Positions 1 to 64,000 of a stretch of 64,000 nucleotides of DNA are shown piece after piece (within the stretch, counting starts at the first letter, position 1; every line of letters starts with the position of its first letter). The position numbers were made by a program, and so were the translations under genes. Origin of the DNA: Phalacrocorax aristotelis (Eukaryota > Chordata > Aves > Suliformes > Phalacrocoracidae); contig NC_134288.1 in the NCBI RefSeq assembly GCF_949628215.1, positions 10,485,682 through 10,549,681 of the forward strand, read 5' to 3'. The notes below the pieces were generated by a model. It did not search any database. It was not told the DNA's origin and was given only the letters and a program-made list of their open reading frames with translations.

Positions 1-14885
<14,885 letters not shown>

Positions 14886-18500: not shown

Positions 18501-19094
18501 GTGTCTCTGTGCAGCCGGGTCCTGCTGCTGACCTTGGCTGCTCTGCTGGATGGGTTGGGGGTATAATTTAGGTCCATAACTGGGCAAGCACTGAGCAAAC
18601 AGGTGGGAGCTGAGATTCACCAGGGAAGAGAGAGCAGTAGGTGCTCCTGAGGAAGCCCAAAGCCACATTTTGGGGTGTGGTGACACATGAAAGAGACTTG
18701 GCAGTCATTGTCCCCTGCCAGCAAGCACCCAGGGACAGGCTCACCCTCTTGGGTGAAATGAAAACTTCCCAGGGCATTTGGGATTTTTGTCTCCTGCCTG
18801 TGAGGAAAAGGATGGGAGCCCTCATCCCAGCAATGCACAGACCCCTCACTCCTGCGGCACTGGGAGTTTCCTAAACCCCAAAGCATGAAGCGACACATGG
18901 TGGCCGGGCAGTGCAGCATCCCATGCCCTTGCTCTCGGTTCGTGCACTGCCATGGAAAGGAGAGTTTGGGAAAGTCCAGTGCAGAGCACTGGAATGCCTG
19001 AGCCATTGAAAGGAAACCTGCATCACTGTAAAAGAGAGGGTGAGTACCTGCACCTGAAAATGGGACGGTTTGGGCAGAGGAGCACAAGGTGCGG
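15561..19094. other. Intergenic spacer between TPD52L2 and the CR1 block
   Basis: If distal poly(A) signals at 15682 or 16574 are used, part of this is still TPD52L2 3' UTR. Otherwise it is unique sequence. It has a G/T-rich tract at 17341-17405 and moderately GC-rich DNA from 17.9 to 19.0 kb. I see no coding exon, RNA gene or recognisable transposon here. Confidence 0.65.
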
Positions 19095-20330
19095 GGGCTT
19101 CCTTGGGAGCGTCACAGGTAGAAGATCATGCCTGACCAACCAGATAGCCTTCTACAATGGTGTGACTGGCTGGGTCGATGAAGGGAGAGCAGTGGATGTT
19201 GTCTGTCTTGACTTCAGTGAGGCATTCAACACTGTCTCCCATAGCCTCCTCACAGGCAAGCTAGGGAAGTGTGGGTTGGCTGAGTGGACAGTGATGTGGA
19301 TTGAGAGCTGGCTCAACAACAGAACTCAGAGGGTTGTGATCAGTGGAGCAGAGTCTGGATGGAGGCCCGTAGCTAGTGGTGTTCCCCAGGGGTCTGTGCT
19401 GGGTCCAGTCCTGTTCAACATATTAATCAGTGACCTGGATGATGGGATAGAGTGTAACCTCAGCAAGTTCGCTGATGACACCCAGCTGGGAGGAGTGGCT
19501 GATACACCAGAAGGCTGTGCTGCCATCCAGCGAGACCTGGACAGGCTGGAGAGCTGGGCCGAGGGGAACGTGATGAAATTCAACAAGAGCAAGTGCAAGG
19601 TCCTGCCCCTGGGGAGGAACAACCCCCCACACCAGCACAGGCTGGGGGTGACCTGCTGGAAAGCGGCTCTGCTGAGAAGGACCTGGGAGTGCTGGTGGGC
19701 AGCAAGCTGACCATGAGCCAGCACCGTGACCTTGTGTCCAAGAAGGCCAAGAGTATCCTGGGCTGCGTTAAAAGGAGTGTGGCCAGCAGGGCGAGGGAGG
19801 TTATCCTCCCCCTCTACTCTGCCCTGGTGAGACCATATTTGGAGTACTGTGTCCAGTTTTAGGCCCCCGCAGTTAAGAAGGACGTGGAACTGCTTGAGCA
19901 AGTCCAGCGGATAGTTACTAAGATGATCAGGGGACTGGGGCATCTCCCTTATGAGGAAAGGCTGAGAGACCTGGGCTTGTTCAGCCCGGAGAAGAGAAGA
20001 CTGAGGGGGGATTTCATCAATACCTATAAATATCTAAAGGGTGGTGTCAGGATGATGGGACTAGGCTCTTTTCAATAGTGCCCAGTGACAGGACAAGGGG
20101 CAATGGGCTCAAGTTGGAACAGAGGAAGCTCCACCTCAATATGAGAAAAAACTTCCCTCTCTGGCGGGTGCCAGAGCAGGGGCACAGGCTGCCCAGGGAG
20201 GCTGTGGGGTCCCTTCCCTGGAGACATTTAAAACTTGTCTGGATGGGTTCCTGTGTCCCTGCTGAAGCAGGGGGTTGGACAGATGATCTCCAGAGGTCCC
20301 TTCTAACAACTACCATTCTGTGATTCTGTA
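19095..20330 (+). mobile_element. CR1 LINE, 5'-truncated, decayed reverse transcriptase, + strand
   Basis: The copy reads through CR1 reverse-transcriptase motifs: [36 protein letters not shown] and the catalytic FADD box at 19468-19479. It continues into the C-terminal domain of the CR1 ORF2 product ([20 protein letters not shown]). It ends in the typical CR1 3' tail, CCATTCTGTGATTCTGT. It is dead: there is a frameshift between about 19600 and 19665, and a TAG at 19860-19862 where the family has Trp. No ORF1 or 5' promoter is present. The 5' boundary is approximate. Confidence 0.93.
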
Positions 20331-22007: not shown

Positions 22008-22070
22008 AGGGTTGGACTAGATGACCTCTAAAGGTCCCTGCCAGGCCATACCACTCTACGATTCTATGAA
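22008..22070 (+). mobile_element. CR1 3'-terminal remnant, + strand
   Basis: Only the last ~60 bases of a CR1 are present: GGTTGGACTAGATGACCTC, then AGGTCCCT, ending in ATTCTATGAA. It stops about 100 bp before the tRNA-Glu gene. Confidence 0.88.
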
Positions 22071-22173
22071 ACCTGCAGCCGAAGGGGGATGTGTCGCTGC
22101 TGTGCCGCTGCAGCCCCTGCGCGGCCCCGGCGGGGACGCGGGAACAGCGGCGGGCGGGAGGAACTTTCATCGC

Positions 22174-22245
22174 TCCCTGGTGGTCTAGTGGTTAGGATTC
22201 GGCGCTCTCACCGCCGCGGCCCGGGTTCGATTCCCGGTCAGGGAA
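22174..22245 (+). tRNA. tRNA-Glu (anticodon CTC)
   Basis: The gene is 72 nt without intron. The acceptor stem pairs TCCCTGG with TCAGGGA, and the D arm carries TCTAGTGGTTAGGAT. The anticodon stem CGGCG/CGCCG closes a seven-base loop CTCTCAC with anticodon CTC at 22207-22209. The T arm is CCGGGTTCGATTCCCGG, giving an intact B box (GGTTCGATTCC). A TTTT Pol III terminator follows at 22253-22256. The sequence is essentially the vertebrate consensus tRNA-Glu, so it is probably functional and not a tRNA-derived repeat. Confidence 0.97.
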
Positions 22246-22252
22246 GGCTTAC

Positions 22253-22256
22253 TTTT
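22253..22256 (+). terminator. Pol III terminator of tRNA-Glu
   Basis: Four T residues start eight bases after the last base of the tRNA. This is the minimal vertebrate Pol III stop. A second TTTT follows about ten bases later and could act as backup. Confidence 0.75.
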
Positions 22257-22439
22257 ACCTCGCTTTTCGCGCCCGCCCTCCCCCCCGCTTTACCACGCAC
22301 CCCCCAAACCCGCTCCGCACACGCAGAATGCGCTGCGGGCGCATGCCCGCGCCCCGCGGGCGTGTGTGTGCGCGCGGGGGGGGCCCTGCCTGGCGGCGCT
22401 GCGCAGGCGCGGTGCGCTGGCCCCTCCCGCGCCCGCCGT

Positions 22440-22588
22440 CGGCGTTCGCCGGGTCCCGCTCGGTGTCTGGCGGCGGCGGCTGAGGGAGCCCCGCCGCGAC
22501 CCGCGGCCGCTCCGCGCCGGGAGGAGCCGCCCGCAGCGTGGGTGCCGCCCCCGCCCGGGGCTGCCCAGCCCCCGCCCTCGGGGCGCAG
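22440..22588 (+). other. DNAJC5: DNAJC5 noncoding exon 1 (5' UTR)
   Basis: A strong donor, GCGCAG|gtgagg, ends the exon at 22588 inside the CpG island. The coding exon at 45551 has an acceptor but no upstream coding sequence, so a separate noncoding first exon is required, as in mammalian DNAJC5. The left boundary is a guess. Confidence 0.7.
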
Positions 22589-25500
22589 GTGAGGCGCGGC
22601 GGCGGGGCCGGGCCGCGGTGGGCCCGGCCGGCGGGCGGAGGCCAAGATGGAGCTGGTGCTGCCGGGCCGGGGCGAGGGGCCGTGAGGGGAGCGGGGCGGT
22701 CTGGGGTGAGGGGGAGGCGGCGGAGGGGGGGGCTCCGGGGCAGGGCGCGGTGTCTCCGCCTGCTTCTGCCCCTGCCCGGGGGGCACCGGCTGGCGGGGGA
22801 CCGGGGGCGGCCCTGCGGGGCTTCCCCACCCGCGCCCCGCATCTCGGGAACCTCCTGCCCCGGGTGGGGGGTTCTGTGGAAATCCCTGCTGCCCCCTGAC
22901 ACCCACATGCGCGTTCACGCGTGGGGGTTTAGGGGCCTGCGTCCTCTGCCTCTGAGCTGTACAGATTGGGGGGGGGGGGGGAAAAACCCCAAAACCCGAA
23001 AAAAAACCCAACAAAAGGCCTGGAAAGGTGAATTCTAAATGAAAGTCATTTGTGTCGTGCGTGAGGCGTGACTCACAGTGACTAGTTTTTTTTTTTTTTC
23101 ACTGGAGGGATCTGGGATGATTTTTGGTTCCCCTTTCCATACGTTGTTCTGCTTAATTTTTAAAAACGTAATTTATAACTGCTCGGATTATGATATGCTT
23201 AATGAACGATGTATTGGCAATGGGAAGTAAATCCAGCCTTTATGATGAGAAACTTGCAAAGGCAGCATAATTTTATTTATTTGTGCAGTGCCTTCTGGCT
23301 CTTGGGTTAATGATTCTGGTCAGGTAATTCCGGCGATATGGAATGCACCTGGGCAAAACAGTGACAGCTCGTTTGCTGATAACGCCTCGCACTTGCTTTT
23401 ATGCTTTTTCAATATCTTGCTGTTATAGTGACACAAAGCTGTTGACTTTATTACTGGAGTATATTGCACTGATGGAGCCGCTTCTCCCTCGGAGAGCACG
23501 GTGAAGGCCATTCGTATGACACAGAAAGGAAAGCCAAACGGTTTTATCTTTTTCGGATTTGTTTTTATTGTGGTATTAATTTTTGTGTGCTGTGAGACAA
23601 TGCTGTAGAGCCCTGTATGCTTAATATTCTCTCTTCTGCGGTAAAGCTTAAAAAAATGGCATAAATTTGGAATATCATCTTAAACCAGTATGAAATAGTG
23701 TAATTCTCCTAGCTGATGTCTGCCTAACGATCTCATGCTAGGGTATCTTAAGCAAATGGAAGTGTTCTGTGTGTGCTTAAATACCAAATTAGTTTGCTGC
23801 TATTGAAGCACAAACTTGCAGGCCGAACTCACCCAGTGGCTGACCGGTGGTGTTTCACCCATTTCATTGGGGAAATTAAGCTATCGAAAGTATGCAAATC
23901 TGAAAGGATTTCTTTTTGAAATGCGTCAGGATTGTACCTATTTAAATTCTTGAATAGTAGCAGCCACCTTTAAGTGGAATTTATTCTTTAGACCAGGATT
24001 TCAGTAGAGGCTTTTTTGAGTTCTAAGGCATCTGTTGGTTTCAGGCTGCTTGAGATCAGTGTTGGCATTTTGTTTGCTTTTGATAGAAGATGATAGAGTC
24101 CTAATCTGACTAAGAGATCCTGAGAAATAGATGCCAAATTAATTTGCATTAATGAATTAGCTCTGATAATTCAAGTACACTGTGCTCTGGGAGGGAGAAA
24201 AGAGGGGAAGCAAAAGCTGGAGTTGAAGAGAAATTGACTTTAATATATAGAGTGTAGGATGAAAAGAAGTTTATTTTTATTGAGCATCTTCCTGTGGTTT
24301 CCTCACATTGCTCTAAGGACTTTGAGAAACTTGTCGTGATGCTGGCCATGCAGAATCTGCTTTGTGGGTGTCCCTGAGTTTGGAAATGAGATTTTCAGTC
24401 AAATAGCTTTTTACAAGCGTAAATAAATGCTGCTTTCCCTCCCTCCTGCATTTTTTCTTAGTGATTGTCCACAGTATTTAAATGAAAAGCGAGATGCTGC
24501 AGCGTGGTCATTTTCCTTCTAAATTTTTCATGTCTTGTATTGATAAATTGCAGGCTGTAAGTTCAAAGTGCTGGTGAAACCAAAGTAGAGATTTCCCAGC
24601 TTCACAGGGTGGCTGTGTGCTATATTTAACCACCTTTTATCAGCGAGCATCTGAAAAAAGTAACTTTTTTAGTATCTTTTGTCTCGTAGCATAGACCTTA
24701 TATCCATGTTGATTATTCCCAAGAAGTATAAACACCCTTTCAGTCTTCCTAAATGCCAAGCAACCCGCTGCCTGGTCCGTTGGAGGTTAGCGTTGCCATG
24801 GTCTACAGCTGAAGTGGAGTAACTTGATGTGGTTTGTGGCTGAGGTGGTGCAGTCACCAACCTGACTTCAGTTATGAAGTTACCCAAGATGGTTGGAGCC
24901 TGCCAGAGACTTGTTTGGCAGCAGAAGATCAGAGCAGGCGTCGAAATACAGCTCTGATGTGGACAGGCTTTTCTTACCATGCTGTACGAAGGTGCCCATC
25001 AAGTCAGCAGTGTTCCTTGGATCTTCATACTTGGGAAAGAGTTGAGTGGTACCAGAATGTGATTTAGCAACCTGGCAGTATGAATGTTGATTTGAGACTT
25101 CGGGCCTTGTTTGTGGCTTTTGCTGTGAGGGAGATGGTAGTTGTCAGCTATGATGTTCTTAATCATCGTATTTCTTCTCTTTGTGAGCTCCAAGAAGGCA
25201 TTTTGTCTGTGTTTAAGCATTTTGATAGTGAATACTAATGGAAGCCGAACTGGATTACTTCAGAAATCATGTTTTCAGTTAAATGTAAAAAGTTGCTGAT
25301 ATGACTCTCTGATTTTATGAATTCAAATGCCAAAATATCCTCTCTGGGGAGGTGGGCACAATTTAAGAATAGGAGATGGTTCTGCAAATCTTACCTGTCT
25401 GTTAAATGACTTGACTTATAATGACAGTACTGCAGCTGGCCTGTGATAATTGCCATATTTCCCCTTTTTGATCAGTTTGCCAGTGTTTCCTCTTTTAAAG

Positions 25501-45550: not shown

Positions 45551-50510
<4,960 letters not shown>

Positions 50511-62094: not shown

Positions 62095-62113
62095 GAGCAA
62101 GTGCGAGGGTGAC

Positions 62114-62119
62114 TTTAAT
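62114..62119 (-). terminator. CRH2: CRH2 poly(A) signal ATTAAA
   Basis: On the minus strand the common variant hexamer ATTAAA lies about 184 bases after the CRH2 stop. No AATAAA is seen nearer to the stop, so this is the likely cleavage signal. Confidence 0.7.
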
Positions 62120-62302
62120 GCACAACAGTGAGAGCAACACACGGGACGCAGTGACGGGGACCCCACTGGGCAAGGTGAGGGGGGGCTCCCTGGGCACAGC
62201 TCCAGCCTCCAGCTGGGCAGCAGCATCCCCCCTCTCTTCTCCGCTCTGCCATGGCCACTCGCTATGGGGTTGGTCTCCTTCATTCCCTCCCACGACCCTC
62301 CC

Positions 62303-62695
62303 TCATTTTCCTATACTCTGCAGCAAGAGCTTATTGCTGAGCGCCTTCTGGGCCAGTCTTTCCTCCCGGGACATTTCCAGGAACTCGCGCAGGAGGTGGA
62401 AGGTGAGATCCAGTGAGTTGGGTTTGCCGTCTCGCCTCTTGCCAGTTTGCAGCGCCCGTGGGGTGCGTGGGACTGGGGTGGGCTCTGCCTCACGGGGCTG
62501 GCACAGTCTCTGGGGCAGGGGGCTGGCAGCGGGGTCGGGGGGTCGCGGGGCTCCCGGCCAGGGCTCCCAGGTGGGTTGGGGGGCCAGGGTCAGCCTGCGG
62601 GTCGGGCCCCGGGGCCACTGCAGGGGTGAGCAGGTCTCCGAGGGCAGGAAGAGCAGGACGAGGACGGAGGCAGCCGAAATCATCCTGACCCGCAT
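62303..62695 (-). CDS. CRH2: CRH2, corticotropin-releasing hormone 2 precursor (130 aa)
   Basis: Secreted neuropeptide precursor on the minus strand, ATG at 62693-62695 and TGA at 62303-62305. Residues 1 to ~22 form a signal peptide with a hydrophobic SVLVLLFLP core. A Pro/Arg-rich propeptide follows to residue 85. The dibasic site KRR lies at 86-88, the mature peptide is 89-128, and Gly129-Lys130 is the amidation signal. The hormone is 40 residues. It carries the CRH signature SLDLTFHLLRE, then LEM, LAQ, a Ser-Asn pair and C-terminal Ile before GK. SLDL followed by LLRE points to CRH or CRH2; urocortins have SIDL or related forms. Avian CRH1 is essentially identical to mammalian CRH, so this diverged sequence fits CRH2, a paralogue described in chicken and absent from placental mammals. 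CRH peptides act on Gs-coupled CRH receptors. A second in-frame ATG lies at 62681-62683. The first is preferred for its purine at -3. Confidence 0.93.
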   Translation of the reverse strand: MRVRMISAASVLVLLFLPSETCSPLQWPRGPTRRLTLAPQPTWEPWPGAPRPPDPAASPLPQRLCQPREAEPTPVPRTPRALQTGKRRDGKPNSLDLTFHLLREFLEMSREERLAQKALSNKLLLQSIGK

Positions 62696-62719
62696 CACAG
62701 ACGCTCCGGGGCCAGTTGC

Positions 62720-63183
62720 CTGCAAGAGCAGTCCCCCACCCCGGACCCTCACATCCCCCCCGATGCGGTCAGGGGGCACCCACGGGGCTTCACGCCATGG
62801 GGAACCCCACCCCAGGGATGACACCCCCCCCCGGGGATGGGACCCCCCTCCCCTGTCCCTGGGACGGGACCCCCCCCGGGGGCTGGAACACCCCACCCGG
62901 GAATGGGACACCCCTGCTCCCGGGGTGAGACCCCCTCCCCTCCCGGGCCATGGGGCACCCTTGGTCGCTGCGACAGGATCCCGCCCCGTGATGTGGCACC
63001 CCCGGGATCTGGGACGCGACCCTCCGGGGGTGGGATACCCCCCAGCCCGGGCACGGGACCCTCATATCCTCGGGACTGGACACCCCTCCCCGGGGTTTGG
63101 GGCTTCCCGCCCCGGGCCGGGACCGGCCGGGGCTCCTGAGTGGGGCGGAGTGGGGTGGGGGTGCCCGCCCCGGCCGCGCTCAC
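62720..63183 (-). other. CRH2: CRH2 intron (464 bp) with G/C minisatellite
   Basis: The donor gtgagc is at 63183 and the acceptor ctgctcttgcag ends at 62720 (minus strand). Most of it is a degenerate minisatellite built on CCCCGGGGATGGGACACCC-like units. The precursor frame happens to stay open into the intron up to 62911. That extension is not coding, because the acceptor and the signal peptide fix the real start. Confidence 0.8.
62805..63105. repeat. Degenerate ~25-bp C/G-rich minisatellite in the CRH2 intron
   Basis: On the + strand, units such as CCCCGGGGATGGGACCCCC, CGGGAATGGGACACCCC and CTGGGACGGGACCCCCC recur roughly every 20-35 bases. The copies are diverged, so an exact unit count is not given. 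Confidence 0.7.
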
Positions 63184-63247
63184 CGCTCGCCGCCGCTCCG
63201 GCCGCTCCGCTCCGCTCCGCACCGCACCGCTCCGCACCGCACCGCTC
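63184..63247 (-). other. CRH2: CRH2 noncoding exon 1
   Basis: The exon is inferred from a donor (GGCGAGCG|gtgagc, exon end at 63184) and a TATA box ~30 bases upstream of about 63247. It contains no ATG. It is almost wholly made of CTCCG/CACCG pentamers on the + strand. The 5' end is an estimate. Confidence 0.7.
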
Positions 63248-63257
63248 CGCACCGCCG
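63199..63257. repeat. Pentanucleotide (CTCCG/CACCG)n repeat over the CRH2 start site
   Basis: About eleven pentamers alternate between CTCCG and CACCG on the + strand, with little interruption. They cover most of CRH2 exon 1 and the predicted initiation site. Confidence 0.85.
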
Positions 63258-63269
63258 CCCGCCACCGCG

Positions 63270-63310
63270 CTATATAGGGGCGGCGGCGGGGCCCACGTGA
63301 CCGCGCTATA
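63270..63310 (-). promoter_or_regulatory. CRH2: CRH2 core promoter: TATA box, second TATA-like motif, CACGTG
   Basis: A self-complementary CTATATAG lies at 63270-63277, correctly spaced from the predicted exon 1. Further upstream for the gene is CACGTG at 63294-63299 in the context GTCACGTGG (E-box, CREB/USF-type). A second GCTATAGC follows at 63305-63312. TGACG, a CRE half-site on the + strand, lies at 63346-63350. A strong TATA box and cAMP-type elements fit a regulated neuropeptide gene; mammalian CRH is cAMP-responsive. Factor binding is inference. Confidence 0.75.
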
Positions 63311-64000
63311 GCCGGGCGGTGCGGGGCGCACCCCCACCCCACGCGTGACGAGGCGCGGGGCCGGGGCGGGGGAGCTGTCCGGGGTGCTGAACGGCCGCGG
63401 CGAGAGGGAGGGGCGGGCGGGGGGGGCACGGGGGTACGTGGGAGTGAGAGTGTGAGAGTCTGGGGGGAACACGGTGGGGTAAGAGTCTGGGGGACCACAT
63501 GGGGGGGCACGAGGCTACGTGGGGGTGCGAGTCTGGGGGTGCACATAGGGTTACGTGGGGGGGGACATGGGGCTACGTGGGGCTGAGAGTCTCAGGGAGC
63601 ACATGGAGGTACGTCAGGGTGCAAATCTGGGGGTACCCGGGGGAACCTGGGGCTGAGAGAGTGTGAGTTTGGGGGGCACGTGGGGGTGCGAGTCTGAGGG
63701 AGGTCACACGGGTGTACATGGGGGTGAGAGGTTAAGAGTCTGGGGGGGACACGGAGGGTGTGTGGGGTTGAGTCTGGGGGTATTTGTGGTGGGGGTGTGT
63801 GAGTGTTTTGGGGGATATATGGTGGTCCCAAAGTGGTGTGAGGGGTGCAGGGTGCAGCTGCAAGAAGCACACATGGTTTGTGGGGTGTTGCTGTGTGTGT
63901 CAGAGGGGTGGCAGTGTTTGGGAGATGCGGGGGCCGGGGTGTGTGTGTGTACACATGCATGTGCGTGAGGGACCCCGTGTGTGTGCTGGGGGCGATGGGG
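63311..64000. other. Upstream region of CRH2, right window edge
   Basis: A GC-rich first ~110 bp passes into a G-rich minisatellite (63420-63790) and then TG-rich sequence. The latter includes an alternating GTGTGTACACATGCATG stretch at 63940-63960 with Z-DNA potential. No exon of another gene is visible before the window ends. Confidence 0.65.
63420..63790. repeat. G-rich ~37-45-bp minisatellite upstream of CRH2
   Basis: The phrase GGGGGCACATGGGGCTACGTGG, then (G)GTGAGAGTCTGGGG, recurs about eight times with changes. Examples start near 63430, 63500, 63540, 63570, 63610, 63675 and 63715. Many G3-G8 runs give it quadruplex potential on the + strand. Confidence 0.8.

Follow-up and report, generated by a model that had tools for sequence, protein, structure and literature searches.

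A probable avian CRH2 neuropeptide gene next to DNAJC5 in the genome of Phalacrocorax aristotelis

In the present study, a small neuropeptide gene was located on the minus strand of the window, that is, the whole stretch of 64,000 nucleotides that was analysed. From its sequence we identify it with high confidence as avian CRH2, the orthologue of chicken CRH2 (KU887752), with an amidated, CRHR2-preferring peptide as its predicted product. The initial annotation had proposed a CRH2-type gene at this place, and this proposal is supported by a 39/40 match with the published chicken peptide, by the pairing of both sequences in a tree (support 97/95), by the occurrence of CRH1 at a locus of its own in this genome, by the gene layout and by the gene order.

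The coding sequence (62306..62695, minus) was translated into a precursor of 130 amino acids, lies entirely within exon 2, has a GC content of 67% and is followed by a stop codon at 62303-62305. The precursor begins with a likely signal peptide of about 23 residues (MRVRMISAASVLVLLFLPSETCS, residues 1-23, 62627..62695), whose cleavage point is approximate. The Kyte-Doolittle hydrophobicity of the precursor is highest from residue 6 (mean 2.65 over 11 residues) and reaches a maximum of just 0.82 in windows starting after residue 26, a profile with which a signal peptide in the leader is compatible. A KRR processing site for prohormone convertase follows at residues 86-88 (62432..62440), and the mature 40-residue peptide, DGKPNSLDLTFHLLREFLEMSREERLAQKALSNKLLLQSI, occupies residues 89-128 (62312..62431). 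It is succeeded by a Gly-Lys signal for C-terminal amidation (62306..62311) and then by the stop codon. The signal peptide, the basic cleavage site and the amidation glycine of a secreted precursor are thus all present as predicted sequence features, and the anatomy given by the initial annotation (130 residues, signal peptide, KRR, CRH-like 40-residue peptide, Gly-Lys) was confirmed by translation and by the hydrophobicity profile. A second in-frame methionine, M5 (62683), has an A at -3 and could be the true start, which would give 126 amino acids instead of 130. In the predicted mRNA stretch examined for ATGs (63245-63184 joined to 62719-62600), only M1 and M5 were found.

The gene is predicted to have two exons. 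Non-coding exon 1 (63184..63245, minus) ends at a donor reading CGAGCG|GTGAGC at 63184/63183, and its 5' end was placed approximately, some 30 bases downstream of the TATA box. The single GT-AG intron of 464 bases (62720..63183) ends at the acceptor TGCTCTTGCAG|GCAACT, so that exon 2 starts at 62719 and extends to about 62095, holding the remainder of the 5' UTR, the coding sequence and the 3' UTR with an ATTAAA poly(A) signal (62114..62119), a variant that is also present in chicken CRH2. Predicted donor, predicted acceptor and a single open coding sequence together give two exons with the coding sequence confined to exon 2. The putative core promoter lies in a 36-base tandem repeat (63264..63331, minus; 1.9 copies, 81% match), which contains TATATA at 63276-63271 and CACGTG at 63299-63294, and which duplicates the TATA-like box as CTATAG at 63311-63306. 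The two-exon layout of CRH genes, the TATA box and the poly(A) signal that had been claimed were therefore all found, the splice junction being read from the sequence alone. Immediately upstream of the promoter, at 63455-63614, there are also diverged G-rich tandem repeats with periods of 22 to 58.

The assignment to the CRF family was examined with profile searches. The Pfam CRF model (PF00473) matched residues 94-128 of the precursor over model positions 4-38 of 38 (E 4.2e-8), and its score of 33.6 bits is above the curated cut-off of 22.1. When the PDB was searched by phmmer with the precursor, the best match was Corticoliberin (E 2.5e-10), and nine distinct sequences were obtained at E up to 1, all named as corticoliberin/CRH, urocortin, stressin or astressin variants or as 'peptide agonist'. 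The sole difference between the mature peptide and published chicken CRH2 is at the first residue, D1 here and E1 in chicken. Within its own genome, the peptide is identical to CRH1 at 25/40 positions, to UCN1 at 18/40, to the UCN2-like peptide at 13/37 and to UCN3 at 9/37. Furthermore, a tree was built from mature peptides (11 rows, 42 columns), in which CRH2 was represented by the window and chicken rows only. These two rows were paired with the support already given, and UCN2/3 were parted from the other rows at 96/95. CRH1 (65/55) and UCN1 (67/31) each formed one group with weak support, 6 of the 8 inner branches were left open, and the program gave a long-branch warning. Hence the tree alone does not firmly separate CRH2 from CRH1 or UCN1, and because these forks are weak, the separation leans mainly on sequence identity and on the existence of separate genes. 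The family-tree check proposed in the initial annotation, carried out here with two CRH2 rows, put the window gene with known CRH2 and not inside a CRH1 or urocortin clade; it was strongly apart from UCN2/3 and weakly apart from CRH1 and UCN1.

Coding sequence of the chicken gene was also available for comparison through published primers. A piece of 75 coding bases was rebuilt from four overlapping chicken CRH2 primers, with the exclusion of primer L3, which conflicts at one base with U2 and U3. Over these bases, 69/75 are identical between the window and chicken, and all six differences are synonymous, an outcome that was reached in 24 of 200,000 trials in which six changes were placed at random. 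Primer L2 of the chicken reads GK and then TG at the same place as the Gly-Lys signal of the window. Five further chicken primers, from outside this 3' coding piece, were placed without gaps on the genomic, unspliced sequence. The reverse complement of the qPCR antisense primer matched 17/20 bases at 62637-62618, around CS|PLQ. By this ungapped genomic placement the other four matched poorly, with 6 to 11 mismatches; these were the exon-1 forward primer, the -112 promoter primer (7/19 mismatches) and two primers that were read as falling directly behind the stop codon.

The whole genome of the bird (1.28 Gb, 352 contigs) was searched with the CRF profile, and five loci, among 16 scored candidates, exceeded the Pfam cut-off. 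In addition to the window gene (contig C13, minus strand), these were CRH1 on C2, with a mature peptide that does not differ from that of chicken CRH1, UCN1 on C3, UCN3 on C1, and an open frame for a UCN2-like peptide (L004, C6:14308428-14308535, minus) that was named by elimination. CRH2 accordingly stands alongside separate CRH1 and UCN1 genes. The UCN2-like peptide was found to be nearer to Urocortin-3 (2.2e-8) than to Urocortin-2 (4.7e-4) in the PDB. When the genome was searched with the precursor, 41 candidates were scored and a single one matched over the full length. Four further matches were obtained, to CRH1 (47%, residues 57-130), to UCN1 (35%) and to two weak loci that each contain an in-frame stop (L009, E 0.07; L010, E 0.22). 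The receptors were looked for as well, in exons drawn from the 30 matches that a CRHR1 query gave, part of which are likely to belong to other class B receptors. Two exons tested on C23 had CRHR1 as their best PDB match, and two tested on C2 had CRHR2, one of them clearly and the second by a narrow margin (3.6e-24 vs 5.3e-23).

The surroundings of the gene were determined with human query sequences for TPD52L2, DNAJC5 and UCKL1, and the TPD52L2 and UCKL1 calls were made by these queries alone. The coding exons of DNAJC5 (45581..50507, plus) gave four matches, and the ORF of its J domain had DNAJC5 as its best PDB match (E 2.2e-39) and matched Pfam DnaJ at 8e-18. The next neighbour, TPD52L2 (coding exons 634..14882, plus), gave six matches with E values from 2.6e-6 to 1.6e-23. 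UCKL1 (minus, C13:10564097-10578199, L012-L013) gave 11 matches and lies about 15 kb past the 5' end of CRH2. The adjacency of DNAJC5 claimed in the initial annotation was thus borne out, with DNAJC5 beside CRH2 on the opposite strand, and the gene order on C13 is TPD52L2, DNAJC5, CRH2, UCKL1. In human, the order at 20q13.33 is TPD52L2-DNAJC5-UCKL1. In fish, dnajc5/dnajc5g are listed around crh1/crh2/ucn1, and uckl1 on the crh2 paralogon, in PMC9353778; both dnajc5 and uckl1 of the CRH2 paralogon neighbourhood are present here, UCKL1 as judged by its query. Of five ORFs of the window scanned with Pfam, three had no match, namely the cysteine-string ORF of DNAJC5, the first TPD52L2 ORF and a GC-rich ORF at 22032-22589. 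Two other elements were observed in the window. A 273-residue open frame at 18889-19707 (plus) contains RVT_1 (Pfam, 3.7e-20) and is presumably a remnant of a CR1-type LINE. A tRNA-Glu (CTC) gene at 22174-22245 (plus), called by ARAGORN and Rfam, adjoins a GC-rich stretch between the coding exons of TPD52L2 and DNAJC5.

That the window gene is instead classical CRH1 or a urocortin is exceedingly improbable. It has the SLDLTFHLLRE block in common with CRH1, its best PDB match is Corticoliberin, and the tree separates it from CRH1 and UCN1 with weak support, but CRH1, UCN1, UCN3 and the UCN2-like gene occupy their own loci, the neighbours are those of CRH2, and 39 residues of 40 agree with chicken CRH2 against 25 with CRH1. 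We consider this identity ruled out by the five separate CRF loci and the chicken match. A chance open reading frame was rejected on the Pfam CRF match, the Corticoliberin match in the PDB and the synonymous coding differences, and a retrocopy or duplicated copy was rejected on the predicted 5' UTR intron, the syntenic neighbours and the single full-length match among the 41 candidates.

The gene could also be a relic of CRH2, silent or in decay, whose intact state is fortuitous now that expression or need has gone. Losses of CRH2 in several vertebrate lineages, for example eutherian mammals and frogs, are reported in PMC9353778, so that the absence from placental mammals asserted in the initial annotation was already in print. 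Against decay, the gene retains an intact open frame, intact splice and processing sites and an intact poly(A) signal, the six differences from chicken in the 75 readable bases are all silent, and the chicken orthologue is described as widely expressed (PMC6727040); a relic is thus very unlikely. It is no more probable that a true CRH2 has departed from that of chicken in its receptor use, for instance towards a balanced action on CRHR1 and CRHR2, through the E1D change or through altered N-terminal processing. The differing residue is indeed N-terminal and the precursor is longer, but the remaining 39 residues are the same as in chicken, and the zebra finch and flycatcher peptides are likewise 97.5% identical to that of chicken according to PMC6727040. 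A CRH2 with lineage-specific regulation, in which the doubled TATA-like box and the longer precursor would cause a departure from chicken in the level or start site of expression and perhaps in additional products of the propeptide, is unlikely too, though it deserves somewhat more credit. An ordinary CRH2 of the chicken kind remains the preferred reading.

As a CRH2 gene, the locus would be transcribed from the TATA promoter into a short two-exon mRNA, of which exon 2 would encode the entire precursor. After removal of the signal peptide, a convertase would probably cut behind KRR, a carboxypeptidase would take off the lysine, and the glycine would be converted to the C-terminal amide, giving the 40-residue amidated peptide. 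By analogy with chicken, this peptide would act through cAMP on class B receptors, with CRHR2 preferred over CRHR1. Thyrotropes of the pituitary would respond to it with higher TSH-beta expression, and ACTH would be released at high dose only; in the brain the peptide may have a broader part in the stress response. The gene most likely serves to supply an amidated CRHR2-preferring peptide that would increase TSH-beta expression in the pituitary and have a weak stimulating effect on ACTH release. We expect the same pathway here because of the chicken data and because exons of both receptors occur in the genome, the functional steps being transferred from a chicken peptide that differs at one residue (E1 vs D1).

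The kind of gene, its presence in birds, its overlooked status with the proposed GC cause, and its action are already known and in print. A 2020 study (PMC7406891) places CRH2 among five ancient members of the family. The chicken gene was cloned and tested in 2019, when its tissue expression and promoter were published together with the receptor preference and the pituitary effects of its peptide, and the same report gives EC50 values of 1.86 nM on CRHR2 and 28.62 nM on CRHR1 for chicken CRH2, and similar potency of chicken CRH1 on both receptors (PMC6727040). In that report chicken CRH2 stimulates TSH-beta expression and, at 10 nM or more, ACTH release, and strong promoter activity is found in -112/+170 and -989/-519, with a TATA box predicted (PMC6727040). 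During immobilisation stress in chicken, CRH2 mRNA is described as rising late in two brain nuclei, after first falling in one of them (PMC9623009). The suggestion of the initial annotation that CRH2 is easily missed in birds through GC richness likewise has a precedent in PMC6727040, which states it for some birds, with GC content as a plausible cause. A full-text literature search with a 35-residue core peptide string gave no match, although PMC6727040 prints the peptide with a line-break hyphen. What is particular to this locus is small, namely a precursor longer than that of chicken and the duplication in its core promoter. The locus raises no new question; its predicted exon boundaries are clear and, like its promoter, can be used in comparisons.

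Compared with known systems, the gene is alike to chicken CRH2 (KU887752; PMC6727040) in its 40-residue amidated peptide (the amidation being predicted here), its GC richness, its predicted TATA box and its ATTAAA signal, and, as described in the same report, in having two exons with the coding sequence in exon 2. It differs from the chicken gene of PMC6727040 in its precursor of 130 amino acids against 107, with a longer propeptide, and in its intron of 464 bases against 416. Identity to chicken CRH2 is given there as 97.5% for zebra finch and flycatcher, which amounts to one residue of 40, and as falling to 58.54% in elephant shark (PMC6727040). CRH2 was called highly variable among vertebrates, and CRH1 much more conserved, in a 2015 paper (PMC4602089); the mature CRH2 peptide hardly varies between the present genome and chicken (1/40). 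The CRH1 of the same genome shares with CRH2 the SLDLTFHLLRE core, the KR ahead of the peptide and the GK amidation signal, but it is identical at only 25/40 positions, has 41 residues and lies on C2, not C13. UCN1 of the same genome shares the DLTFHLLR core and the CRF family with CRH2, and only 18/40 residues are identical.
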